IMG/VR virus record: IMGVR_UViG_3300018416_000064
Location: 1 to 31,336 of that record
Reading direction: 5' to 3' (one strand)
Origin: a virus
DNA length: 31,336 nucleotides
Below the pieces are notes generated by a model that did no database searches, was not told where the DNA came from, and saw only the letters and a list, made by a program, of their open reading frames with translations. This document shows, piece after piece, positions 4,576 to 29,168 of this stretch (position 1 is its first letter; the number at the start of each line of letters is the position of its first letter). A program made the translations under genes and the position numbers.

Positions 4576-5664
4576 TTATTGGAATAGAGGATTTTGTTCA
4601 AGATCGAGACTGGTTGGCGGATTGTATGCCGCCACTTCCTTGACTCTTTCCACGATCTCTTGGACAGGCTTTTCTTTTGTGGTTTTATCTTCAACAACTT
4701 CCTGTTCAACATCCTTTGTTGGATTTGTAATGGATAAGTAAAGCTCTCGACCAAGCTTTGTAAGCATCCTCTTCCCGTCAATGTCAATCAGTCCCTTTCC
4801 AAGAAGTGCTGCTTCGTATTCATTCTGGATTACAGACCTAGAGAATCCTGTTGAAGCTGCAATCGCATTAAGTGACTGCTTCTGCCTCTCTCCAAGGAGT
4901 TTGATGATTTTCAATTCTGCATCGTTCAGACCATATTGATAAATACCCATGATTAAGCAGAATTCGTCCCACAAAGGCTTGTTGATGTAGGTGGCCCCTT
5001 TTGCCAATGCGAAGTGGTCAAGCTCTTCTGCAAGCTCTACACAAGCCCTCGGATGCCCTCGAAATACCTTGACAATATCTCCACTAATCTCATCACTGGT
5101 TCTTGTTTTACAGTTCAACTGGAAAATATCAAAAAGATTTTTAGTAGAATAAGGCTGGATTGAGATTTTTGTCAATCGGTCGAGCAGGGCTTTCTTCAAT
5201 TTCTGCTGGTCAGTTGTGGCGAAAACAATAGAAATTTTACGAAAATCAAATTCGTAATCAACCTCGCCACCTTCTCTGTGAGTGTAGGTGATTGTGCGAA
5301 CAGGATTCGGGTCTTTCTCTAGAATCGTAAGAAAAAGTTCTTGAAGTTCTGAGGGGATGTTGTGAGCTTCGTCGATAAAAAGAACTGCATTACTATTAAT
5401 CCAGTGTGGGTAGTAACTCTCTAGGAACGATTCTGCACTTTTAATAGCAGCACCGTTTACTTCCATAATCGGAGGGGTGTCTCCGTTGTTTTTTCTCAAG
5501 GTTTGGCGGAACTCGCGAATTGTTTTTGTTTTACCATCGCCCCTCGCTCCAGTGAAGATAATGAATGGCAATTTATTCTTCCTTTCATAAGAGTTTTTAT
5601 AAATAAAGAGTCTTGACTTAACTTCTTCTTGTCCAATAATGTTTGGTAGGTAGTTTTCTTTCAT
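4576..5664 (-). CDS. RuvB-like AAA+ ATPase
   Basis: The 362-residue protein has an AAA+ core with Walker A GARGDGKT (39-46), Walker B VLFIDEAH (94-101), sensor 1 FATTD (148-152) and an arginine-finger region LLDRLTK (around R163). A winged-helix-like C-terminal domain follows (about 245-320: LNDAELKIIKLLGERQ, then VIQNEYEAALLGKGLIDID), the domain order of RuvB, the Holliday-junction branch-migration motor (~335 aa). The extra ~40-residue disordered tail ends in QNPLFQ, resembling a sliding-clamp-binding QxxLF peptide. It may process recombination or replication forks with the phage RecA. No RuvA or RuvC is visible here. Confidence 0.8.
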   Translation of the reverse strand: MKENYLPNIIGQEEVKSRLFIYKNSYERKNKLPFIIFTGARGDGKTKTIREFRQTLRKNNGDTPPIMEVNGAAIKSAESFLESYYPHWINSNAVLFIDEAHNIPSELQELFLTILEKDPNPVRTITYTHREGGEVDYEFDFRKISIVFATTDQQKLKKALLDRLTKISIQPYSTKNLFDIFQLNCKTRTSDEISGDIVKVFRGHPRACVELAEELDHFALAKGATYINKPLWDEFCLIMGIYQYGLNDAELKIIKLLGERQKQSLNAIAASTGFSRSVIQNEYEAALLGKGLIDIDGKRMLTKLGRELYLSITNPTKDVEQEVVEDKTTKEKPVQEIVERVKEVAAYNPPTSLDLEQNPLFQ

Positions 5665-9963: not shown

Positions 9964-11187
9964 ATGAAGCGTCGATCTTTTTTATCCACAATAGGAGGCC
10001 TAGCACTCCCGTCATTACTCTCTGCCCAATATGGAAGAGAAGCAAAAGCGAAGAACATTATTTATGTTTACTTGACTGGAGGTATTTCAGCGCAGGAAAC
10101 TTTTGACCCAAACCCATTTGCGGATTCAGAATTTAAAGGACCATTCAGTTCAATTAAAACAAAAACTGATGATCTTTTCTTTTCTGACAGATTTCCTTTA
10201 TTAGCCAAAGAGACTAATAAATTTTCAGTGATTAAGTCAATGACTCACGGGCAAGCAGCCCACGAAAGAGGAGTAGAGTATATGTATACTGGATACAAGC
10301 CTTCTCCTGCTATAAGTTATTCTTCTATTGGCTCTGTAATTTCGCACGAATATGGAGTTCAAAATTCACTACCTCCTTATGTAACGGTTCCTGATACTCC
10401 AAATCAATTTGCAAATGCTGGATTTCTGTCTTCACAGTATAATCCATTTTCTTTAGGTAGTGATCCATCTTCTCCCTCCTTCAAAGTTAAAGATTTGGGC
10501 CAAAACTTGCCAGCAAGAAAGGCTGACATTTTAGAGTTAGTTGATTCCAGATTTAAAAAGGAAGTTTCTGACGATGCCATCGTCGCAATGGATAAATTTT
10601 ACAACCAAGCCTTTGGTCTTATGGCGTCTCAAAAAGCAAAGGACGCTTTTGATATATCTAAAGAAAGCGAAAAAACAAAAGATTTATACGGAGACTCTTC
10701 TGCTGGCAAACGACTTTTAATTTCAAGAAGGCTTGTCGAATCTGGAGTCAGGATTGTAAAAACAAGTTTTGGCAGTTGGGATAATCACGATAATATCAAA
10801 ACAAGTTTTGAAAACCAAGCCCCACAATTAGACAAAGCTCTTGCCGGATTGTTTCAAGACCTAGAACAAAGAGGTTTATTAAATGAAACTTTAGTGGTTG
10901 TTACAAGTGAGTTTGGAAGAACTCCTAAAATAAACAAAACAGCAGGAAGAGATCATTACCCAAAAGTGTTTTCTACTATAGTCGGAGGAGGCGGGATTAA
11001 TAATGGTATTGTTTACGGTTCTTCTGGAAATTTAAGCATGGAGGTTGAAGAAAACCCTGTTTTGCCTGAAGATTTATTTGCTACAATTTTTCACCTTTCT
11101 GGAATTTCTCCAGAAAAGGAGCTTTTCACAAAAGATTTAAGGCCGATTCAGATAAGCAAAGGAAAGATTATCGAAGAGTTAATTTAA
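9964..11187 (+). CDS. Tat-exported DUF1501 (sulfatase-superfamily-like) protein
   Basis: The 407-residue product starts MKRRSFLSTIGGLALPSLLS, a twin-arginine signal (RRSFL, then a hydrophobic stretch), so it should be exported folded. The rest matches DUF1501: an N-terminal strand IIYVYLTGGISAQETFDPNP, SVIKSMTHGQAAHERG, then SFGSWDNHDN, LDKALAGLFQDLEQRGLLNE, VVTSEFGRTPKINKTAGRDH and FSTIVGGGGINNGIVYG. The Asp/His/Glu residues of these motifs probably bind metal in an alkaline-phosphatase-like fold. Members are mostly 420-480 aa and abundant in Planctomycetes/Verrucomicrobia. Occurrence in phage DNA is unusual and suggests acquisition from a host. Substrate unknown. Confidence 0.85.
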   Translation: MKRRSFLSTIGGLALPSLLSAQYGREAKAKNIIYVYLTGGISAQETFDPNPFADSEFKGPFSSIKTKTDDLFFSDRFPLLAKETNKFSVIKSMTHGQAAHERGVEYMYTGYKPSPAISYSSIGSVISHEYGVQNSLPPYVTVPDTPNQFANAGFLSSQYNPFSLGSDPSSPSFKVKDLGQNLPARKADILELVDSRFKKEVSDDAIVAMDKFYNQAFGLMASQKAKDAFDISKESEKTKDLYGDSSAGKRLLISRRLVESGVRIVKTSFGSWDNHDNIKTSFENQAPQLDKALAGLFQDLEQRGLLNETLVVVTSEFGRTPKINKTAGRDHYPKVFSTIVGGGGINNGIVYGSSGNLSMEVEENPVLPEDLFATIFHLSGISPEKELFTKDLRPIQISKGKIIEELI

Positions 11188-14044: not shown

Positions 14045-14725
14045 TCATACGGCCCCCTCTCTTCTAAATAATTCATTTCCAGTTCTATTTGTGGTTTTAA
14101 TCTCATTATCTCTTTCTTTCTCAAATTCAAACATATTAAAAATCTCATCAGGATTAGCAGACCCGCCTAAAAATTTAATTAAACGAATCATCTCTTGATT
14201 ATCTTGTAACCTTAATTTTTCATAGTTTAATGTGATTATTTGTTCTGAATTTAATTCTTTATTAAATAAACTATAATCGTATCTCCATTTATCGACAATA
14301 TCCTTAATTAAATCATTTTCTAATTCCACATCTTCGACGCCGAAGTATTTCAACCTTTCCAATAGGTCGGATTCTTTAACGTGTGATTTAGCGTAATGAA
14401 ACCTACTTTTTATCGCATTCTCTTCCTTTCTTAATATGTTTAAGATTAATAAATTCTCATCCATATTAGTTAATTCTTCAAATAAATCTGGAGTGATAGA
14501 GTGACTTTTAATGTAAAAGTTCCCACCCATCTTTCTAACAAATTCTGATATTAGCCCTAACTTTTCTCTACAATTTACTTTAGTTAAATCTAAGAACTTA
14601 TCTATAAAAGCATAATCTTGTGTGTTATCCAGAATTTTATTCGACATTCTCCCAACCCAACTAGACCCAACCCTCATGGCTGTTGAAATTAGTAAATGCT
14701 TCTTTTCGGGTAAAATGCAATTCAT
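14045..14725 (-). CDS. Sulfotransferase-like protein
   Basis: The product has 226 residues from the ATG at 14723-14725 (a TTG lies directly upstream). LLISTAMRVGSSWVGRM corresponds to the 5'-phosphosulfate loop of PAPS-dependent sulfotransferases. NILRKEENAIKSRFHYA fits the 3'-phosphate site (R...S), ITLNYEKL is the usual strand near the acceptor site, and FLGG follows. The protein ends at RREGAV, where family members usually continue as R-x-G-x-x-G-x-W-K, so the C-terminus is clipped. It could sulfate surface glycans, together with the glycosyltransferase just upstream. It has its own near-leaderless promoter. Confidence 0.7.
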   Translation of the reverse strand: MNCILPEKKHLLISTAMRVGSSWVGRMSNKILDNTQDYAFIDKFLDLTKVNCREKLGLISEFVRKMGGNFYIKSHSITPDLFEELTNMDENLLILNILRKEENAIKSRFHYAKSHVKESDLLERLKYFGVEDVELENDLIKDIVDKWRYDYSLFNKELNSEQIITLNYEKLRLQDNQEMIRLIKFLGGSANPDEIFNMFEFEKERDNEIKTTNRTGNELFRREGAV

Positions 14726-14731
14726 CAACTG

Positions 14732-14760
14732 ATTATATCTATTTTTTTACAATAATTCAA
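14732..14760 (-). promoter_or_regulatory. Near-leaderless promoter of the sulfotransferase
   Basis: Minus strand TTGAAT (14755-14760), 17 bp, TATAAT (14732-14737), then 6 nt to the ATG at 14725. Confidence 0.65.
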
Positions 14761-14879
14761 AGAAAAAAACAACATGCAGTTTCTTTCAAATTCTCGTCTT
14801 TCAAAGATTCGCAAATATAAGAAGAACCCACTCCAAAGGGAGTATAAACTAAAATTTTTATTCTATTAATATTTGCCAC
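14757..14879 (-). pseudogene. Fragment resembling a sulfotransferase N-terminus
   Basis: A 40-codon frame from a GTG (14877-14879), overlapping the end of the glycosyltransferase gene, reads IKILVYTPFGVGSSYICESL near its start. This parallels LLISTAMRVGSSWVGRM of the neighbouring sulfotransferase: a strand, then TP, VGSS, aromatic. It stops after 40 residues, so it is probably a decayed duplicate or leftover of a replaced gene. The match is short and could be chance. Confidence 0.35.
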
Positions 14880-15994
14880 TTTTTATTTATCTCTTCCCAA
14901 TCAAAGCTTTTAACAATTTTTTTTGCCTTTTTTACTCTAGATTTTGAATTAGGAAACTCTCTGTATATTTTTTCTGCGCTTTTTTTTGCATCAAAGTCTG
15001 GAACTGATTTGCCCATGTAAAGAACTGACTGAGAATCTTCTAAGAAGATCGCGGATTTTTCATCGAATATTTCTGAAAATGAAGAATGATTACCAAGAGC
15101 AATAGGAACTTCACAACTGGCCGCTTCAGTTGCAGTCAATCCCCAACCTTCCCCATGAGAGGTCGACAAGAACAAATCAAAACAATTATATATCTCTACC
15201 AAAGCCTCTTTTGGACAGTCTGTATCTCCTATGATTCCAGTTTGAAAAAACGGATCAGCGAAAATACATTTGTCTAATACTCCCATTTCAAGCGCGATCT
15301 GCTTTAAATTAAAATAACCATTTGGGTCCGAATGAAGATAAAGCCTCCAAGAATCATCCAGCTTTATTAAGTTGGAAAATATATCAATAGTTCTATATAA
15401 GTTCTTTCTCTTAGAGTTTGAATTCACTACTCCAAGTATTTTATTTTCCATATGCTCTGGAAACCATTTAAACTTTTTATTTTCTTTTGTTTTCTTGAAG
15501 AAGCTGTCGGACCCGTGAGGTATTACGTATATAGGTTTTGTTTCGTCTTGTAATTGTTTTTTAATATTTTCTTTTCCGAATTGAGTATAAGCAACTATTC
15601 CGTCTGCTTCTCTTAAAAAATCGACATCAGACTCTTTATTAAAATAACAATCTACAGGAACGTAGCATATTAACTTTAGCAGTTTTTCTTTGCGAACCTC
15701 TTTTATTACGTCAATATAATTTGCAAATCTAAAGGGGTCGTGAATTGTCCACAAAGTTATAGTCGAGCCTAAAGACAGCAAGAATTTTTTAAACCTTTGA
15801 GCGTTTTCAACAGACTCCCAAGAGGAGTTAATATTTGCTGGATAAATCGGAAAATCGTATTTGTGAAGTTCGCAGTCATACCCTATTCCCCAAAAGAACT
15901 TATTTTCCAAATTTAAATTGGGAACTATGTTTTGAGTCACTCTAGAAAAACCGCTTTCTAAAGTAGGGGAATCTCCTAAAAAGACATATTGCAT
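14858..15994 (-). CDS. GT4-type (GT-B fold) glycosyltransferase
   Basis: The 378-residue protein has an N-terminal Rossmann domain (MQYVFLGDSPTLESGFSRVT) and a C-terminal domain with the GT4 features: YVIPHGSDSFF, GVVNSNSKRKNLYRTIDIF, FLSTSHGEGWGLTATEAASC (the E-x7-E nucleotide-sugar signature) and VPIALGNHSSFSEIF. It transfers sugar from an activated nucleotide donor; the acceptor is unknown, but its position directly after the tail-fibre gene and before a sulfotransferase suggests modification of a virion or cell-surface glycan. It has its own near-leaderless promoter. Confidence 0.85.
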   Translation of the reverse strand: MQYVFLGDSPTLESGFSRVTQNIVPNLNLENKFFWGIGYDCELHKYDFPIYPANINSSWESVENAQRFKKFLLSLGSTITLWTIHDPFRFANYIDVIKEVRKEKLLKLICYVPVDCYFNKESDVDFLREADGIVAYTQFGKENIKKQLQDETKPIYVIPHGSDSFFKKTKENKKFKWFPEHMENKILGVVNSNSKRKNLYRTIDIFSNLIKLDDSWRLYLHSDPNGYFNLKQIALEMGVLDKCIFADPFFQTGIIGDTDCPKEALVEIYNCFDLFLSTSHGEGWGLTATEAASCEVPIALGNHSSFSEIFDEKSAIFLEDSQSVLYMGKSVPDFDAKKSAEKIYREFPNSKSRVKKAKKIVKSFDWEEINKKWQILIE

Positions 15995-17888: not shown

Positions 17889-18182
17889 TTAAAACGGAAT
17901 TCCGTCGTCTTCTACAGTTTCGCCAGAAGAGGTAACTTGTTGACTCTGCCCATTAGAAGATGTTGTGGCAGCACTTTTTACTTCACTCAAGTAAATTCGC
18001 GCATCTGGTGTTTTCTCTCCCTCTTGTTTGTGGGTGTTTCTAAGAATCATAATATTGACTCTCTCACCATCTACAGTTACATAGCCAGAGCTATATGCGT
18101 TTCCACCTGCTGATGTTTTGCTCCAAAGTGCGCCGCATTCGCGCTCTTTCCAATCGTTTTTGCTTTCTTGTTGATCACTCAT
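17889..18182 (-). CDS. SSB-like protein with acidic tip
   Basis: The 97-residue protein begins with WKERECGALWSKTSAGGNAY and a strand SGYVTVDGERVNIMILRN, then TPDARIYLSE; this layout resembles small OB-like, DUF736-type phage proteins. A Ser/Gln/Thr-rich linker follows and the protein ends EDDGIPF, matching the conserved SSB tip (acidic residues, then I-P-F) that recruits partner proteins in bacteria. It probably binds single-stranded DNA during replication. Its start overlaps the stop of 18175-18327 by 8 bp. Confidence 0.65.
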   Translation of the reverse strand: MSDQQESKNDWKERECGALWSKTSAGGNAYSSGYVTVDGERVNIMILRNTHKQEGEKTPDARIYLSEVKSAATTSSNGQSQQVTSSGETVEDDGIPF

Positions 18183-18327
18183 TTTTATTGAATTCTGTTT
18201 TTTGGTTTTTGTTTAGTTTTGTATAAACTTTTTTAAGTCTTCTGTAGTTTTTTACTAGAATTTTGTTTTTAGGGTCTTTGTCTAAGCCCTGATGTCTTCT
18301 TAATTTTTTACTTTGTTTTCCAGACAT
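18175..18327 (-). CDS. Small basic hypothetical protein (50 aa)
   Basis: Frame from the ATG at 18325-18327 to TGA at 18175-18177. Very basic (GKQSKKLRRHQGLDKDPKNK, VKNYRRLKKVYTKLNKNQKT). It overlaps the SSB-like gene by 8 bp and the preceding gene by 20 bp, a strong sign of real coupled genes. Charge suggests nucleic-acid binding; family unknown. Confidence 0.6.
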   Translation of the reverse strand: MSGKQSKKLRRHQGLDKDPKNKILVKNYRRLKKVYTKLNKNQKTEFNKNE

Positions 18328-18544
18328 TTTTTTGATTAATTTTGCAAATTGAGGTTTTTGCCAATTTTACTAGGTTAAAGGCTTTATTCCTGTCTCTAAA
18401 TAGGACATAAAACGGAGTAACCTTCTCTACTTTAGCATTGAATTTTCGGCCATCAAATGTTTCGATACCAACGAATCTACCAGATGATTGTTTCAAAAGA
18501 CGCTCGTTATTATTCATGTTAATCGTTTTTTCTTTGTTTGTCAT
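18308..18544 (-). CDS. Small Lsm/SH3-like protein, start uncertain
   Basis: The frame is open from 18586, but its first ATG overlaps the -10 box of the promoter at 18585-18613, so translation starts downstream: at 18544 (MTNKEKTINMNNNERLLKQS, 78 aa) or 18517 (69 aa). Residues NERLLKQSSGRFVGIETFDG, then KFNAKVEKVTPFYVLFRDRN and KLAKTSICKI, look like consecutive beta-strands of a small barrel, possibly Lsm/Hfq-like or SH3-like, which I cannot confirm. It is the first gene of the run ending in the SSB-like gene. Confidence 0.5.
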   Translation of the reverse strand: MTNKEKTINMNNNERLLKQSSGRFVGIETFDGRKFNAKVEKVTPFYVLFRDRNKAFNLVKLAKTSICKINQKNVWKTK

Positions 18545-18584
18545 ATTGTATGTTGTATTGTTTAAAATCTGTTTCTGTTTCGGC

Positions 18585-18613
18585 ATTATAAGCTACAAAA
18601 TGCCTTTTGTCAA
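18585..18613 (-). promoter_or_regulatory. Consensus sigma70 promoter before the SSB-like operon
   Basis: Minus strand TTGACA (18608-18613), 17 bp, TATAAT (18585-18590). It shows that ATG 18586, inside the -10 box, is not the start of 18308-18544. Confidence 0.7.
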
Positions 18614-20538
18614 ACCTTTTCTATGAAAAACTCGTTATTTATTGCTTTTTTCAAATCTGCGTCTATGTCACTCGATTTTAATACATTAGCTGCTTGAAAA
18701 CCCAAGCTTTCTTTTTTAAACTTAGAGCTAAAAAACAAGAATAAAGAATTTCCAAATCGAACATCTTGTCCGGTTGGTAACTCCACCTTGCCCTCTTCTA
18801 AAATTTGGATTAGAGAAGATTGTGCTTCTTTTTTGATGCAGTCTATGTCTTTAATTAAAAACGTCGCACCTTCTAAAATCGAGGCTTTTTGAGCTAACGA
18901 ACACAAATAATCTTCAGAGAAGCCTGATATTGAATTTTTGTCTACTAGGGATTTTGCCGACACTGAAACGTAAGGCATCCCATTAGATTTAAAGTAACTC
19001 TCTAAGACAGAGATGACTGCTTTTACATCACTTTCTGATCCAAAAGAAAAAATACTATTGGGGATATCGCCATCTTGTTTAGTAAAAACATCTTCAGATA
19101 TGTTTTTGAAGAAATCGAGCAATTTATTGCAATTGATTCCCTTTTTTAACAACTCTTTGGACAAGCCAGTTTTAAAATCCTTTTTTAACAAAAGACCTCC
19201 TTTATCAACAAAGGCTTCTTTTAAAGTCTTCCTAGTCACCGAATTTAAATCCTCCAACTTGGCAATAGCACCGCATTGATCGACTATATCTACAAATTTA
19301 TCTGGATAATTCCTGTTTGGTAAAAAAACATCACAAAATTTAATAGCTTCTTTTGAAAATTCGGGAAAATATTCAACGCCGCTCTTTTTGCTAAAGCTTT
19401 CAACGATATGATCAGCAATGTCCAAAACTTGAGAAGAGGACAATGGCAATACAGATACCTTCTCAAACCTCCTGTCTAAAGCTGGATTCTTTTTAAAACT
19501 TTGATTGTATTCATAATCTGTAGTTGCCCCTATGCAAGATATTTCTCCCCTTGCTAGGTAGGGTTTTAAAATATTAGACGCTTCCAAATCTCCCTTTCTT
19601 CCTGTCCCTCCTGCTCCAATTAAAGAATGAATTTCATCAAAAAACAAAATAATGTTATCGTATTTCATTACTTCGTTAATGAACTCTTTAATTCTTTCTT
19701 CAAAATTGCCCCTAAACTCTGTTCCTGCAACCATATCTGAAATGGATACTTCGAATACGACCTTTCCTTTCAAACAGTTTGGAACTCTATCGTTTACAAT
19801 TTCTCTAGCAAGCAACTCTACAATTGCAGTTTTTCCTCCTCCTGCTGGTCCAACGAGAATTGGATTCGGTTTTCTTTCTCTAGACAAGACTGTTTGCGTC
19901 TTTTTTAATCTATTTTCAAAATCTACAAGACCGTCGAAATCTCCAGCCATAGCTTTTTTATTTAGATTTACGGCGAACAAGTCTATTGTTTCATTAACTG
20001 CGTCTTGTTGAAATATTCTTTCTTCATCTTCGCTCTTTTCCTCCTCCTCTTCTTCCTCTTCCTTCTCCTCCTGTTCATCCAGCAGGGAGGCAAGAGGCTC
20101 TCCAAGGTCTTTAATAAAAAGAACTATTTTTTCTATAAAATCATTTACTGAAAAATCTCCTGAATCAAGTAGCGATTTTAACAATTTACCGTGTTTTGGG
20201 TAAGACACTAAAGCTAGTAATAAAATCTCCGCAGATATATCTTCTTGCTCCAAAGTTTCCGCCAGAGACTCTGCAACTTGCAAAACTTCTCTACATTGTT
20301 TATTTAATCGAGTTGTCGGATTTTTTGATGGAGGCTTTTCAGTTAAAAAACAGTAAGCTAAAACTTTTGATAAATTAACATCAATATTTAAAGAACCAAA
20401 AATCTTATGGATTGAAATTGAATTATGGGAAGTCACCGCCTCCCAAAGAATATCTACACAAATATAAGGCCTTTCAAGCTCCTCTGCGGTATCTTCGGCT
20501 CTTTTTAAAATTTGCAATACGTCTTTTGATTTATTCAT
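18610..20538 (-). CDS. Clp/Hsp100-like AAA+ ATPase with inactive second ring
   Basis: The 642-residue protein has a Clp N-domain-like region (1-150), an acidic linker (155-173, mostly Glu), then a complete D1 AAA+ module: Walker A GPAGGGKT (230-237), Walker B ILFFDEIH (297-304), sensor GATT (337-340) and finger ALDRRFEK (353-360). The D2 module (about 470-640) is recognisable (SSLIQILEEGKVELPTG, NSLFLFFSSKF) but its Walker A is replaced by SFGSESD (498-504) and its Walker B is FLIKDID, lacking the catalytic Glu. Normal ClpA/C have two active rings. Its start overlaps the polymerase stop (TAATG), so it is co-translated with the polymerase core and may remodel replication complexes. I see no ClpP gene here. 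Confidence 0.8.
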   Translation of the reverse strand: MNKSKDVLQILKRAEDTAEELERPYICVDILWEAVTSHNSISIHKIFGSLNIDVNLSKVLAYCFLTEKPPSKNPTTRLNKQCREVLQVAESLAETLEQEDISAEILLLALVSYPKHGKLLKSLLDSGDFSVNDFIEKIVLFIKDLGEPLASLLDEQEEKEEEEEEEEKSEDEERIFQQDAVNETIDLFAVNLNKKAMAGDFDGLVDFENRLKKTQTVLSRERKPNPILVGPAGGGKTAIVELLAREIVNDRVPNCLKGKVVFEVSISDMVAGTEFRGNFEERIKEFINEVMKYDNIILFFDEIHSLIGAGGTGRKGDLEASNILKPYLARGEISCIGATTDYEYNQSFKKNPALDRRFEKVSVLPLSSSQVLDIADHIVESFSKKSGVEYFPEFSKEAIKFCDVFLPNRNYPDKFVDIVDQCGAIAKLEDLNSVTRKTLKEAFVDKGGLLLKKDFKTGLSKELLKKGINCNKLLDFFKNISEDVFTKQDGDIPNSIFSFGSESDVKAVISVLESYFKSNGMPYVSVSAKSLVDKNSISGFSEDYLCSLAQKASILEGATFLIKDIDCIKKEAQSSLIQILEEGKVELPTGQDVRFGNSLFLFFSSKFKKESLGFQAANVLKSSDIDADLKKAINNEFFIEKV

Positions 20539-23078
20539 TATTTTAATTCTTTGGTCTTTAAATACACCTTACTGTCAAGAACGCTCATTGTCGAGACGAA
20601 ATTTGTTCCGTCTGAAATTTCCGCTCTTATAACTGCTATGTCTCCTTTATTTGGTTCTCCGTTTTCTAAAAATCTAGAAAAAGCGTCTCCCCTCCAGTCT
20701 CCAAAAAGTATTTTTGCCGTTCCACTGTCATCGGACACTGTAGCCGCCATGTATTTTCTATCGTTTCTGTCTAAGCGAATTGTGAAGTCGTCTATTCTAG
20801 CGACTGCTCTCCAGCTTCTTGGCTGTTCAATAGATATATCCTTTAGGGTTTTTAAATCCCTCTTTTCTTTGAAGCAGTCAACTAAAGAAATAGAAGGGCT
20901 GTAACCTAATAAATTAGTCTCAAACCACCAAGTCGATAAGTTTCCTCTTTTTTGGTTTTCTTGATAAAGAGTTTTGTAATCTTGAAATTTTCTTTTAAAA
21001 GTTTCAAATCGAGACTCTTTCATTACCAACTTGTTATCGTCTCCAATGATTTTTTCAAATACGCTTTTGGATATGGAATTTAACAAGTCAAAATTATGCC
21101 TTTCCCCAAGTTTGTAAAATTGTCTTTTCTCTCTGTCTGTTAGTAAATTGTATGCTTGAGCTTCTAAAGCTTTTTTCGGCCTTTCCTTTAATCCCAAAGC
21201 TCCTGCGTAAATCATAGAGCTTAAAACTCCTATATTTATTTTACACTGTTTTGCACAAGCGAATACGTCGTATTTGTTTTTAGGGTCTAGTTTAACAAAC
21301 TCCTCCAAACATTTCTTTGTTCTTTCTGAAACTCCCTTGATCGACTGAAGGCCGTAACGAATATCGTCGCCTTCTATTGTGAAATTCATTGCAGATGACT
21401 CCAAGCTTGGAGGGAGAAGTCTAACTCCAAAGTCAGAAATTTCTCTACTTACCTCCGCAATAGCCTCCAAGGGGTCTGGCTCGTCTTCTGCGACCTCTAG
21501 AATTGATGTAAAGAATTCTTTTGGATGCTTATATTTTAGCCAAACCGTTTTGGCGGCTAAAGACGCATAGCAAACTGCGTGACTTGCATTAAAAGAATAG
21601 TTGGCACTGGCTTCTAGCGCGTTCCAATAATATTGCGCCAAATCTTCATTCAAGCCGTTTTCGTTAGCCGCTTGAAAGATTTTCGACCTCCATGCTGGCA
21701 TTTCATTTGTTTTTTTCTTTCCAACGATTCTTCTCAAAGTCTCCGCATCGTCAAGAGAAAGTTTAAAAACTTTATTAGCAATTTGCATCAATTGTTCTTG
21801 ATACAAGATTACGTTTTTTGATCTTGCCAAGATTTTATCTAATTCTGGATGAAGACCTAAAGGACTTTCATTTTGTTTTTGAGAAATATAGTCATCTACA
21901 AACTGCAATGCAGCGGGTCTAGCTAGAGCAACAACGTCAGCAAGTTCTGCTAAATTGCTAGGTTTTACTTTTTTCGTTACGTCTGCGTTGATGTCTGCCG
22001 AAATTTGAAAAAGACCGCAAGGATGATTAAAGTCTTGCAGCATTTCATAAATAAAAGGGTCTTCATCGTCTACATCATCCAAGGATATTCCGATCTTTTT
22101 GCACACCTTATTCGCAATTGACAGAGTTCTTAACCCTAGAATGTCAAACTTCACCATTAAATCGGCAACGTCATTCATTTCATAACTAGAGATTAGTTCT
22201 CCGTCCTTAGTCAATTGAAGAGGACAGACATCAGAAATCTCTTGGGAGCAAATCGCAATACCAGAAGGGTGAACTCCGCAATTTTTATTCAAATTTTCTA
22301 ATAACAAAGCGCATTCGTAAGCTTTTTTGTTACTATTGCACCAATCTTCGAATCTAGGAACTTCATCATAAGCCCTTTTTAAAGAAACAACTTTCCCATG
22401 TTCTTTGGGAATCATGTCGCTAACTTTATTTGCTTCTTCTTCGGATGCGTTAGAAAAGAATTTCGCGCATTCTTTTATACAAAGCTTTGAAGAGAAAGTA
22501 TTAAAAGTTAAAATTTTGGCCGTTTTTCCTTTGTGCTTTTCTTCAATATAGTCTATTACTTTAAATCTATCTTCGTGAGATATATCTGTATCTACATCTG
22601 GAGCCAGCGATCCTACTAAAAATTCTTTACCTTTTTTGTCAAAGGTCTTTTTCGCTCTATTTTTTGAAACAAATCTCTCAAAAAATAGATCGTGTGGGAG
22701 AGGGTCTTTATTCGTTACTCCAAGCAAATAAAGGATTAAACTACCCGCTGCGCTTCCTCTGCCATCCCCCACGGCGATCCCACTCTTCTTCGCAAAATCA
22801 ACTACATCCCAATTCAAAAGAATGTAATCAACAAAACCTAATTCATCAAAAATATCAATTTCATATTTGGCCCTATCGTAGTATTCCTTCTTGTTGGAAA
22901 GTTTGTCTATCCCTCTGTCTTTAATACCCTTTCTTGATAAGGCCTTTAAAACTTCTAAACTATCAGCCTTTTTTTCCAACCCAAGCTTTTTGAGAGTCTT
23001 TTTTTCTAATTCAATCTTGGGCAACTCCAAACCTGCTGGTTCAAAATCCTCATAGGTTTCAAAACTGTCAAAATTCAT
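20538..23078 (-). CDS. DNA polymerase III alpha, polymerase core without PHP domain
   Basis: The 846-residue protein aligns with bacterial DnaE from just before the palm: YEIDIFDELGFVDYILLNWD, GDGRGSAAGS (104-113), PDVDTDIS with catalytic Asp161 and Asp163, and VKFDILGLRTLS with Asp312. LYQEQ (425-429) and KKKTNEMPAWRS follow, then LLPPSLESSAMNF, and an OB fold (about 755-840: AVARIDD, ATVSDDSGTAKILFGDW). The N-terminal ~270-residue PHP domain is absent but encoded separately at 28476-29168. The tau-binding C-terminus of bacterial DnaE is also missing. It is the likely phage replicase. It has its own near-leaderless promoter and overlaps the Clp-like gene by one base. Confidence 0.9.
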   Translation of the reverse strand: MNFDSFETYEDFEPAGLELPKIELEKKTLKKLGLEKKADSLEVLKALSRKGIKDRGIDKLSNKKEYYDRAKYEIDIFDELGFVDYILLNWDVVDFAKKSGIAVGDGRGSAAGSLILYLLGVTNKDPLPHDLFFERFVSKNRAKKTFDKKGKEFLVGSLAPDVDTDISHEDRFKVIDYIEEKHKGKTAKILTFNTFSSKLCIKECAKFFSNASEEEANKVSDMIPKEHGKVVSLKRAYDEVPRFEDWCNSNKKAYECALLLENLNKNCGVHPSGIAICSQEISDVCPLQLTKDGELISSYEMNDVADLMVKFDILGLRTLSIANKVCKKIGISLDDVDDEDPFIYEMLQDFNHPCGLFQISADINADVTKKVKPSNLAELADVVALARPAALQFVDDYISQKQNESPLGLHPELDKILARSKNVILYQEQLMQIANKVFKLSLDDAETLRRIVGKKKTNEMPAWRSKIFQAANENGLNEDLAQYYWNALEASANYSFNASHAVCYASLAAKTVWLKYKHPKEFFTSILEVAEDEPDPLEAIAEVSREISDFGVRLLPPSLESSAMNFTIEGDDIRYGLQSIKGVSERTKKCLEEFVKLDPKNKYDVFACAKQCKINIGVLSSMIYAGALGLKERPKKALEAQAYNLLTDREKRQFYKLGERHNFDLLNSISKSVFEKIIGDDNKLVMKESRFETFKRKFQDYKTLYQENQKRGNLSTWWFETNLLGYSPSISLVDCFKEKRDLKTLKDISIEQPRSWRAVARIDDFTIRLDRNDRKYMAATVSDDSGTAKILFGDWRGDAFSRFLENGEPNKGDIAVIRAEISDGTNFVSTMSVLDSKVYLKTKELK

Positions 23079-23084
23079 TCAATG

Positions 23085-23112
23085 AACATACATCGAAAGT
23101 AGGGTTTGTCAA
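23085..23112 (-). promoter_or_regulatory. Near-leaderless promoter of the polymerase core
   Basis: Minus strand TTGACA (23107-23112), 16 bp, TATGTT (23085-23090), 6 nt to the ATG at 23078. The -35 box overlaps the end of the upstream gene. Confidence 0.6.
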
Positions 23113-23894
23113 GTCTTTATTTTGTTCCACACTTCAAACTCAGAGCCTTTCCACTGTTTGGGAACTTGCCCCCCTTCTGGCCAAAGTCCATTTATAGCCA
23201 TTTCCCACTCCTCCTCATCCAAAGGAGGGAATGTGAAAATTTCGGTTGGAGGGTTTAAGCATTTAAGAAGTTTTGTGTCTGGATTGTGCAACCATTTTGA
23301 TCCATCTGGATTTTCTCTAGCACTATCCCAACCGCAGTCTCTGAACGGCGGAATCAATTGATTGGGAATTGGGTAAAAAGAAAAGAATTTAAGCCCTTGT
23401 TTTTTCATGTAGTCTTGAACGCTTTCTTCCGTCCATTTTAAATTGTCCAGAGGGCCGGGACCACCGAAATCTTTTTGTGCGATTAAGTAGTCTGAACGTC
23501 TAATAAATTGCGCCCTTTCCGAATAATTCCCATGCCCTTGATTTCCTGCCAAATCAATATAGTAATTGTTTTCGAAAACAATCTTTTCTGTAAAAAAGTC
23601 TATATGTTGTTCAGTTAATTGCATTTGCAGCAAGTGGTCTACCTGTATGTAAAAGGCAAATTCACTTTGGCACTGAGAAAATAATTGAACGGTTCCGGCT
23701 CCGCAACCTATATTGATTGAATTATTGATAACCCTATCACACAGTCCTTCTTTGAGAAACTTGTCAGCGTATTTATCTCCCCCGTTGTTCAATACAACAA
23801 TCTTTTTTTCAAATAAAGCATTCTCTTTCAGAGAATTCAGTAAATTCTTTAATTCATTTGGCCTATTGTAATCTAAAATTAGGATTTCAGTCAT
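23109..23894 (-). CDS. Glycosyltransferase-like protein (GT-A)
   Basis: The product has 261 residues from the ATG at 23892-23894 (MTEILILDYNRPNELKNLLN); an upstream TTG-type frame start would add 29 poorly typed residues. The first strand and helix, VVLNNGG, then NNSINIGCGAGTVQLFSQCQ and FAFYIQVDHLLQ are arranged as in family-2 (GT-A) enzymes; the acidic site in QVDH would be the metal-binding DXD-like position. The C-terminal half is aromatic-rich. The acceptor is unknown. It lies inside the replication module, so glycosylation of DNA bases is conceivable but unproven. Confidence 0.6.
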   Translation of the reverse strand: MTEILILDYNRPNELKNLLNSLKENALFEKKIVVLNNGGDKYADKFLKEGLCDRVINNSINIGCGAGTVQLFSQCQSEFAFYIQVDHLLQMQLTEQHIDFFTEKIVFENNYYIDLAGNQGHGNYSERAQFIRRSDYLIAQKDFGGPGPLDNLKWTEESVQDYMKKQGLKFFSFYPIPNQLIPPFRDCGWDSARENPDGSKWLHNPDTKLLKCLNPPTEIFTFPPLDEEEWEMAINGLWPEGGQVPKQWKGSEFEVWNKIKT

Positions 23895-23940
23895 TTTTTT
23901 GATTCTTTCGATAAATAGTTTATTGTGGTAACAGGGTAAA

Positions 23941-24357
23941 TTAATCCAATTTAGGTTCAACAAATGGCTTTGAAAAGTCAATTGTCGCCCCTTTCATTTT
24001 AATCACTTCCGGCCTGTCTGCAAAGTGTTTTGTTTTGTTTTGTTTTTGGTATTTATCAAAGAACTTTCTTTTTACAGGGTCTTCTGCTCCAATTTTTTCT
24101 GCCCTCTTTTCCGACATTTCTTTGCTTGCATTCCACAAGTCTCCAATGGTTCCTTTCATGTTTCCAGTCTTCTCCACATGAGATCGTTTATCAAATGGGT
24201 CACAATTAGAAAGAGAGTCGATAGAGGCGTTTGGGACGGTCCATACCCTCTCCCATTCTTCACCGTCTTCTCCAAAATAAACGTGCTTCTCGTCCATTTT
24301 TTGAAGAACTTCCCGAACTTCTTCGGTGTCTTTGTTTTTGTATAGATAAATAGGCAT
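23941..24357 (-). CDS. FmdB-like small phage protein
   Basis: The 138-residue protein begins MPIYLYKNKDTEEVREVLQK, then KHVYFGEDGEEWERVWTVPN, an N-terminal layout like FmdB/putative regulatory proteins (MPIY-x-[FY] plus the terminal VPN strand). The four zinc-binding cysteines of typical FmdB are missing, as in several phage versions. The rest is charged and helical. Its start codon and promoter -10 box lie within a near-perfect palindrome (24356-24379), suggesting control by a DNA-binding protein or RNA hairpin. Confidence 0.55.
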   Translation of the reverse strand: MPIYLYKNKDTEEVREVLQKMDEKHVYFGEDGEEWERVWTVPNASIDSLSNCDPFDKRSHVEKTGNMKGTIGDLWNASKEMSEKRAEKIGAEDPVKRKFFDKYQKQNKTKHFADRPEVIKMKGATIDFSKPFVEPKLD

Positions 24358-28251: not shown

Positions 28252-28489
28252 CTAATTGAAAATCTGCAAAAAATTCTTCTCCTCTTTTTTCTTCCTTTAG
28301 AAAGTTTTTGATACCACCTTTGACGGCCATCCTTGTTGCCTGATTTTCGAAATTCTCTGCACAAGTTGGATTTCCTGATGAGTCCACGTAGAAAATAAAA
28401 AATCCTTTATTCCCTCCTGCGTGATAGCCTGTCCTATCATAGAGCTTCGAAAACAAGCTCTCTGGTATATTTAGTTTACTTTTTTCCAT
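28244..28489 (-). CDS. Small hypothetical protein (81 aa)
   Basis: Starts at the ATG at 28487-28489 behind a GGGAGG that could be a ribosome-binding site; the longer frame from 28612 lies inside the PHP gene. It is soluble (MEKSKLNIPESLFSKLYDRT, then FFIFYVDSSGNPTCAENFEN). It overlaps the PHP gene by 14 bp and the helicase gene by 8 bp, so expression is coupled to both. A helicase-loader role is conceivable from position only. Confidence 0.6.
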   Translation of the reverse strand: MEKSKLNIPESLFSKLYDRTGYHAGGNKGFFIFYVDSSGNPTCAENFENQATRMAVKGGIKNFLKEEKRGEEFFADFQLDD

Positions 28490-29168
28490 AATCCTCCCAA
28501 CAAAATCTCTTCGTATTACAATCTTCAATTTCGGGTGCGTCAAATTTTCTTGGCCTCCCTCCAGTGCCTCTTCCGCACATGGACTTATAAGCTTGGAATG
28601 CCGGAAAGTCAAGTTCTTTTTCGTAAAGAATTGTTTTGGCAGTTTGAAATTTTACGCTGTCTAAATTTAACTTCTTCAATTTGTCTATTTCTCTTTGAAT
28701 TTGATAATCAAACGGATGACCGTTTTCTTCCTCAAAAACAACGCATTCCTTTAGCTTTTCTATTGGAAGGTTTGAGTTGCCGAAATTATGAATTCTTTTA
28801 TGCAAAAAACTGTCGTAAAAAGGTATCGCGACCAAAACATCACAAGATTGAATGCTTTCAAAATTAAGAATTCCATCGTTTTTAACGTATGCTTCAGAAA
28901 ATAACTTTCTAAGTTCTTTAAGTCCACTATCGTTCTTAGCAAAAAGAACGATCTTGCTTGAAGCGTTGTCTTCGTGACTGCAATCTATTCTCAACCCGAA
29001 AATCAACTTTTTACCCTGTTCTTTTGCCTTTTTTACGGTTTTGCGGAAACCTGCAAAAGAGTCTTCTACCACAACTACTTGCTCCTCGTCTTTTGCTAGT
29101 TCAAAAATTCTATCAATAGATAGGATCGACTTTCCTATTGAAAAATGAGTCTTAAATAAGGGTATCAT
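28476..29168 (-). CDS. Stand-alone PHP domain of DNA polymerase III alpha
   Basis: The 230-residue protein aligns with the N-terminus of bacterial DnaE: PLFKTHFSIGKSILSIDRIF corresponds to VHLRVHSDYS, VVVVEDSFAGF to the ALAITDFTN segment, KKAKEQGKKLIFGLR to the GAGIKPIVGA strand, and KIVLFAKNDSGLKELRKLFS to the VLAANNTGYQNLTLLIS helix. The C-terminus (FPAFQAYKSM, NTKRFCWED) corresponds to the DAHEIRVAI and YMRSEEEM segments just before the palm. Metal-binding His/Asp residues of active PHP domains are not preserved (VEDS, THFS), so it is probably structural rather than a proofreader. It should associate with 20538-23078. It has its own near-leaderless promoter. Confidence 0.85.
   Translation of the reverse strand: MIPLFKTHFSIGKSILSIDRIFELAKDEEQVVVVEDSFAGFRKTVKKAKEQGKKLIFGLRIDCSHEDNASSKIVLFAKNDSGLKELRKLFSEAYVKNDGILNFESIQSCDVLVAIPFYDSFLHKRIHNFGNSNLPIEKLKECVVFEEENGHPFDYQIQREIDKLKKLNLDSVKFQTAKTILYEKELDFPAFQAYKSMCGRGTGGRPRKFDAPEIEDCNTKRFCWEDYGKK

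Follow-up and report, generated by a model that had tools for sequence, protein, structure and literature searches.

The window, by which we mean the whole stretch of DNA analysed (a linear IMG/VR virus record of 31,336 bases), contains a replication cassette in which a gene for a Clp/Hsp100-type unfoldase follows the gene for the core of a DNA polymerase. Judged from the relatives, the cassette begins with a RecB/Cas4-like nuclease, PHP and a DnaQ-type exonuclease, continues with polymerase core and Clp, and closes with a 69-aa SGRFFG protein and an SSB-like protein, where the names of nuclease, exonuclease and SSB-like protein are putative and taken from the sequence. The genes that matter here are:

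28476..29168, minus strand: PHP-domain gene, the N-terminal piece of a split polymerase (PF02811, 9.4e-9; PHROG 405 match to the polymerase N-terminus)
20538..23078, minus strand: DNA polymerase III alpha core, DnaE type, without PHP domain (PF07733, 1.5e-59; PF17657, 6.5e-35)
18610..20538 (stop codon included), minus strand: Clp/Hsp100-type unfoldase P0001, 642 aa (ORF and translation, ATG start)
18308..18586, minus strand: small conserved SGRF(F/V)G protein, located after Clp in many relatives (similarity between the sequences)
17889..18182, minus strand: putative SSB-like protein at the cassette end (DDGIPF terminus)

The SGRF(F/V)G-type family is the next ORF in 39 of 88 loci, and a family similar to the SSB-like protein (which itself gave no Pfam or PHROG match) is seen among the first two ORFs past Clp in other loci. 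Elsewhere the window encodes a RuvB/clamp-loader-like AAA+ protein (4576-5664, minus strand; RuvB_N 6.2e-9, PHROG 5846 clamp loader 1.6e-19). A glycosyltransferase-like ORF (23109-23981) adjoins the polymerase at the place where most relatives have the exonuclease, and the stretch 14045-15994 holds a sulfotransferase-like ORF together with a second glycosyltransferase-like one (14858-15994), all three named by their sequence alone.

Searching IMG/VR with the window Clp as a single sequence gave no match; relatives were found by scanning with the polymerase (about 40-72% identity). A first scan with a Clp alignment returned at least 7 loci, and a later one with Clp alone again yielded mostly polymerase-linked genes. 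The first-pass annotation of this DNA had coupled the unfoldase to the polymerase and proposed a search for the gene pair in other phages; the search shows this link to be real, with the Clp gene after the polymerase in every close relative of which the contig runs past the polymerase. The exceptions (L142-L144) concern other phages, with a polymerase of just 32% identity. On the other side of the polymerase, the exonuclease stands immediately before it in 69 of 85 loci, and the PHP gene occupies the second upstream place in 60 of 82. No neighbour is as constant as Clp, which is more tightly linked to the polymerase than either. It was also rightly seen that Clp starts inside the polymerase stop codon, as in TAATG (20536-20540) the polymerase TAA and the Clp ATG overlap by 1 nt, sharing an A. 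Production in a fixed ratio with the replicase, which had been derived from this, does not follow: a 1-nt overlap is no proof, and beside the frequent gene overlaps among the relatives there are several with gaps of 5-700 nt.

In full-length clades an AGTGTAA-like stretch, possibly a regulatory element, recurs between the polymerase stop and the Clp ATG (L009, L013, L043, L053, L064, L067, L068 and L069). At another locus (L145:9992-13780) the polymerase ORF counts 1,263 aa, some 400 aa above its relatives, which is probably due to an in-frame intein in DnaE.

Within the unfoldase the following parts can be recognized:

20104..20538, minus strand: helical domain at the N-terminus, about residues 1-145, at the position of the Clp_N double repeat (AlphaFold2 helices at 5-142)
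20014..20103, minus strand: acidic Glu-rich linker, about residues 146-175 (sequence; pLDDT below 50 at 146-171)
19243..20001, minus strand: D1 AAA+ module with intact motifs, about residues 180-432 (PF00004, 5.1e-16; AAA_lid_9, 1.3e-6)
19828..19851, minus strand: D1 Walker A GPAGGGKT, residues 230-237 (motif comparison with relatives)
19633..19653, minus strand: D1 Walker B IILFFDE, residues 296-302 (motif comparison with relatives)
19465..19476, minus strand: D1 arginine-finger segment DRRF, residues 355-358 (motif comparison with relatives)
18613..19071, minus strand: AAA+-like D2 remnant, about residues 490-642 (partial PF07724, 6.1e-7; AlphaFold2; Foldseek)
19018..19041, minus strand: degenerate D2 Walker A GSESDVKA, residues 500-507 (alignment with relatives)
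18847..18861, minus strand: degenerate D2 Walker B FLIKD, residues 560-564 (alignment with relatives)
18697..18705, minus strand: LGF, residues 612-614, putative ClpP-docking tripeptide (in the position of the ClpA IGL / ClpC VGF loop)

The N-terminal domain reaches the Pfam cut-off for Clp_N in three relatives (L016, L056 and L051) and stays below it in the window protein. As annotated before, the ATPase motifs of D1 are all intact: GPAGGGKT, ILFFDE (297-302), EFRG (the pore loop, residues 274-277) and DRRF. By alignment the intact ring corresponds to residues 158-424 of ClpC/ClpA, which is D1, and AAA_lid_9 comes after it; the ring is likely to be an active ATPase. The D1 match to ClpC has an E-value of 4.5e-56, and among phage families the protein matches PHROG 4871 ('ATP-dependent protease') with 5.5e-79, against only 8.9e-7 for the PHROG clamp loaders, for which reason a DNA polymerase clamp loader was rejected. 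The equivalog cut-offs are not passed, either for ClpA (NCBIfam; 274.7 bits against 993.15) or for ClpB (237 against 1232).

The second ring had been called dead, which holds at the level of motifs: those for ATPase activity and translocation are lost, as the remnant has no normal ATPase site, arginine finger or GYVG pore loop, and the small domain is cut off. ATP hydrolysis by D2 has presumably been lost. The motifs themselves need some revision. The D2 Walker A was correctly described as degenerate, but its reading as SFGSESD is out of register; the in-register form is G500-S-E-S-D-V-K-A507, in which, compared to GPRQIGKT of relative L003, the Lys is kept whereas the second Gly has become Val and the Thr has become Ala. 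The reported loss of the Walker B Glu stands, with the addition that in FLIKD the Asp is replaced by Lys and the Glu position is taken by Asp.

AlphaFold2 monomer models were obtained for the window protein (pLDDT 85.4, pTM 0.64) and for a relative without D2, L016 (pLDDT 85.6, pTM 0.57). In the structure prediction of D2, proposed with the first-pass annotation, what remains is AAA+-like, without the small domain. With Foldseek both models match ClpC and ClpA structures best, ClpC-ClpP complexes included, and the window model matches ClpC1 of the ClpC1P1P2 complex. Model confidence falls to 59 at residues 611-620 of the window protein, the block with the loop, and likewise in the final block of L016, as would suit docking elements that are flexible.

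The state of both rings was compared over 89 distinct proteins, window included. A canonical D2 is seen in 25; another 45 have a D2 without arginine finger and GYVG pore loop, and 19 have no D2. All 45 window-type proteins share these two losses together with an Asp at the Walker B Glu position; only the window, L052 and L071 have a defective D2 Walker A as well. D1, on the other hand, has intact Walker motifs in 87 of the 89, and nearly all retain its pore-1 loop and arginine finger. The two proteins with a damaged D1 have a canonical D2: in L051:12965-15340 both D1 Walker motifs are gone (GDEGVGRK, no Walker B), and in L048:12543-14927 the Walker B reads LDN (Glu to Asn). Not a single protein of the 89 has both rings broken. 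In the polymerase tree the D2-less forms make up one clade (100/100). A D1 tree rooted with jumbo-phage Clp (a quick tree, with some long branches) places D2-less and degenerate-D2 forms in two separate clades (100 each), so D2 was probably reduced at least twice. A tblastn search for a separate D2 gene downstream of D1-only Clps found matches only inside the Clp gene itself.

What does persist is the tripeptide, which had been overlooked when the protein was assigned a role in remodelling rather than proteolysis: LGF 612-614 (preceded by Ser) lies at the ClpP-docking loop of ClpA/ClpC. In the full-length relative L056, which aligns with B. subtilis ClpC over nearly its whole length, LGF falls on the VGF of ClpC. 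We counted [ILMV]GF in 131 distinct complete polymerase-linked Clps, 26 of them without D2, and found it in 130; the sole exception (L146, 543 aa, from a Flavobacteriales MAG) has an ORF that stops 30 nt before the contig end. Within D2, only 3 of 262 columns are fully conserved over 70 D2-bearing proteins: two belong to the loop (its G and F) and one is the first Gly of Walker A. The D2-less proteins end, in 26 of 26 distinct cases, in IGF plus 0-2 residues, while among about 1,700 products of other ORFs in the same loci (at least 150 aa) just 2 have [ILMV]GF at the C-terminus (a third match, itself a Clp, was set aside). As the D2-less form is a single clade with one origin, these 26 cases are not independent. 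Recent copying is nonetheless no explanation, given that the residues before IGF vary and that its Gly codon shows synonymous turnover (GGA 9, GGT 8, GGG 1, GGC 1). In the alignments, the loop tripeptide outlives not just the surrounding D2 ATPase motifs but the complete D2 domain. Its survival through decay or removal of its own domain would be explained most simply by selection for ClpP docking.

Two loci (L229 and L233) that resembled D1-only forms without IGF were rejected as such, because an intein breaks up their Clp and VGF is present in the C-terminal part. The intein sits in the D2 Walker A (L229:3974-6876; GSTGVGK, CISGDTEI...NGILSHN, TYLAKQ) with its halves in two ORFs; between these, L229 has a small nuclease-like ORF (5322-5597), as in a split-intein 'fractured gene'.

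Erosion of D2 in several lineages might also be expected of a decaying gene that is being lost and in which the motif persists through chance or recent descent. We regard this as hardly credible: apart from the synonymous turnover at the motif, the frames are open throughout, no close relative with a continuing contig has lost the gene, and the D1 motifs are conserved over deep divergence (even the nearest relative, L052, is only 63% identical in D1).

It might further be argued that the IGF tail imitates the C-terminal tail of SSB (DIPF type), or is a sliding-clamp peptide, and ties Clp to the replisome; the gene lies within a replication cassette, of which the SSB-like protein ends in DDGIPF. 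This is very improbable, and as an SSB tail it was rejected. Ahead of IGF most residues are basic or neutral and few are acidic, and several D2-less proteins continue for one or two residues past the Phe (IGFH, IGFL, IGFI, IGFGV), where an SSB-type tail tolerates none. Moreover, full-length relatives have the tripeptide in an internal loop, at the VGF of ClpC in the alignment. For an IGF motif that docks on ClpP there is precedent: IGF loops bind the hydrophobic sites of ClpP (PMC9035409), and IGF grafted into an unrelated peptide activates it (PMC8745299).

As first annotated, no ClpP partner gene accompanies the unfoldase: a search of 53 related viral records gave no phage ClpP (PF00574), and one of 26 records gave no HslV/proteasome homologue (PF00227). 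Since these records are fragments or of unstated completeness, the phages might also have a ClpP of their own. Among jumbo phages there are some with a gene for ClpP or for the adaptor ClpS, with a proposed role in steering proteolysis (PMC7824862). Three MAGs that contain contigs of this kind, two of Flavobacteriales/Flavobacteriaceae and one of Saprospiraceae, all encode ClpP. This binning, from which a Bacteroidota host is deduced, is not strong evidence and may be wrong, as contig fragments also turn up in a Woesebacteria bin and a Lokiarchaeota bin. A DUF1501 protein in the window (9964-11187, plus strand; PF07394, 5e-101), with a Tat-like signal and unusual in a phage record, could hint at a host among the Planctomycetota or Verrucomicrobiota, though not strongly either.

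Missing ClpP genes in the 53 records, constant adjacency to the polymerase core and frequent gene overlap all fit the earlier proposal that the protein works without ClpP and remodels replication complexes, or the split polymerase. Such a protein would have no use for a tripeptide kept in nearly every relative, also as a free C-terminal tail, whereas Hsp100s that do not dock, such as ClpB, lack the ClpP loop, as does the unlinked relative L065. Relatives with an intact D2 and a ClpP loop also exist, contrary to what was expected under a role without proteolysis. We therefore consider it quite unlikely.

The main rival is a ClpP decoy, which would displace host ClpX, ClpC or ClpA and so block or redirect host proteolysis and protect phage proteins, with unfolding as a secondary matter. 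It agrees with a docking motif that outlives the D2 ATPase motifs, and with the division of labour in E. coli ClpA, where D2 is the principal motor and D1 auxiliary (PMC9663308), so that a D1-only motor may be weak. A decoy needs neither ATP hydrolysis nor a pore, though, and yet the Walker motifs, pore-1 loop and arginine finger of D1 are kept almost throughout, as is the N-domain; where D1 is damaged, it is D2 that is canonical. The decoy appears rather unlikely on this balance.

Our preferred reading, to which we give a probability of roughly 0.7, is that of a phage class I (ClpA/ClpC-type) unfoldase which is made together with the replicative polymerase, docks on host ClpP and threads chosen proteins into it. 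The protein is predicted to form hexamers. Its N-domain would select the substrates, and the work would fall to the D1 ring, whose ATPase motifs and pore-1 loop are intact; D2 of the window protein would neither hydrolyse ATP nor grip substrate, serving as holder of the LGF docking loop, and in the sister clade, where D2 is gone, the IGF C-terminal tail would be the hook. With D1 intact, the likely activity is unfolding of clients and their delivery to host ClpP, which would take place during replication. The clients themselves can be guessed at: perhaps host factors, perhaps phage replication proteins. As to the more specific proposal of a ClpP partner with only a D1 ring, docking by its IGF tail and bringing about replication-linked proteolysis on a hijacked host ClpP, we lean towards it with some reserve.

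All ClpP partners described to our knowledge dock through a D2/HCLR-type ring, and we know of no docking by D1 only. In the literature searched (subscription journals being mostly outside it) neither a D1-only, IGF-tailed Clp nor a phage cassette of polymerase and Clp is described. In ClpA, D2 is both the main motor and the carrier of the docking loop; these phages seem to have reversed the arrangement in two lineages, with D2 worn or dropped and D1 kept with the tripeptide. Natural proteins of 458-502 aa allow a direct test of whether a D1-type ring alone can drive ClpP. Overall, the results suggest that in a widespread group of uncultured phages the replicase has a conserved connection with host proteolysis.

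Compared with known systems, the proteins are closest to ClpA/ClpC, with which they share the D1 sequence, the place of the N-domain, the pore-1 loop, the position of the docking loop and the overall fold. They differ in that D2 of the window protein has no normal Walker motifs, arginine finger, pore loop or small domain, in that the sister clade has no D2 at all, and in being encoded by a phage gene behind a polymerase. The ClpA-like proteins of cultured jumbo phages (PHROG 4871; RaK2, GAP32, PA5oct, Phosso) have a similar D1 (about 30-44% identity), and those of Phosso and PA5oct carry IGF in the loop, as here, whereas those of RaK2 and GAP32 are without [ILMV]GF. Unlike the window protein, the jumbo-phage proteins have intact Walker A/B motifs in both rings, and their genes have no adjacent DnaE polymerase in the regions seen.

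ClpB has an Hsp100 D1 as well, and its BAP variant binds ClpP (PMC4023160). Like ClpX and HslU (class II), the phage proteins seem to combine one working ring with a docking element for a peptidase chamber. The single ring of ClpX and HslU is of the D2 (HCLR) kind, whereas the ring that survives in the phages is D1, of the classic clade; natural ClpB differs from the window protein in having no ClpP loop, and the window protein from ClpB in its degenerate D2. HslU activates HslV through its C-terminal tail (PMC4106860), and in the D2-less phage proteins it is the tail that carries the ClpP tripeptide.
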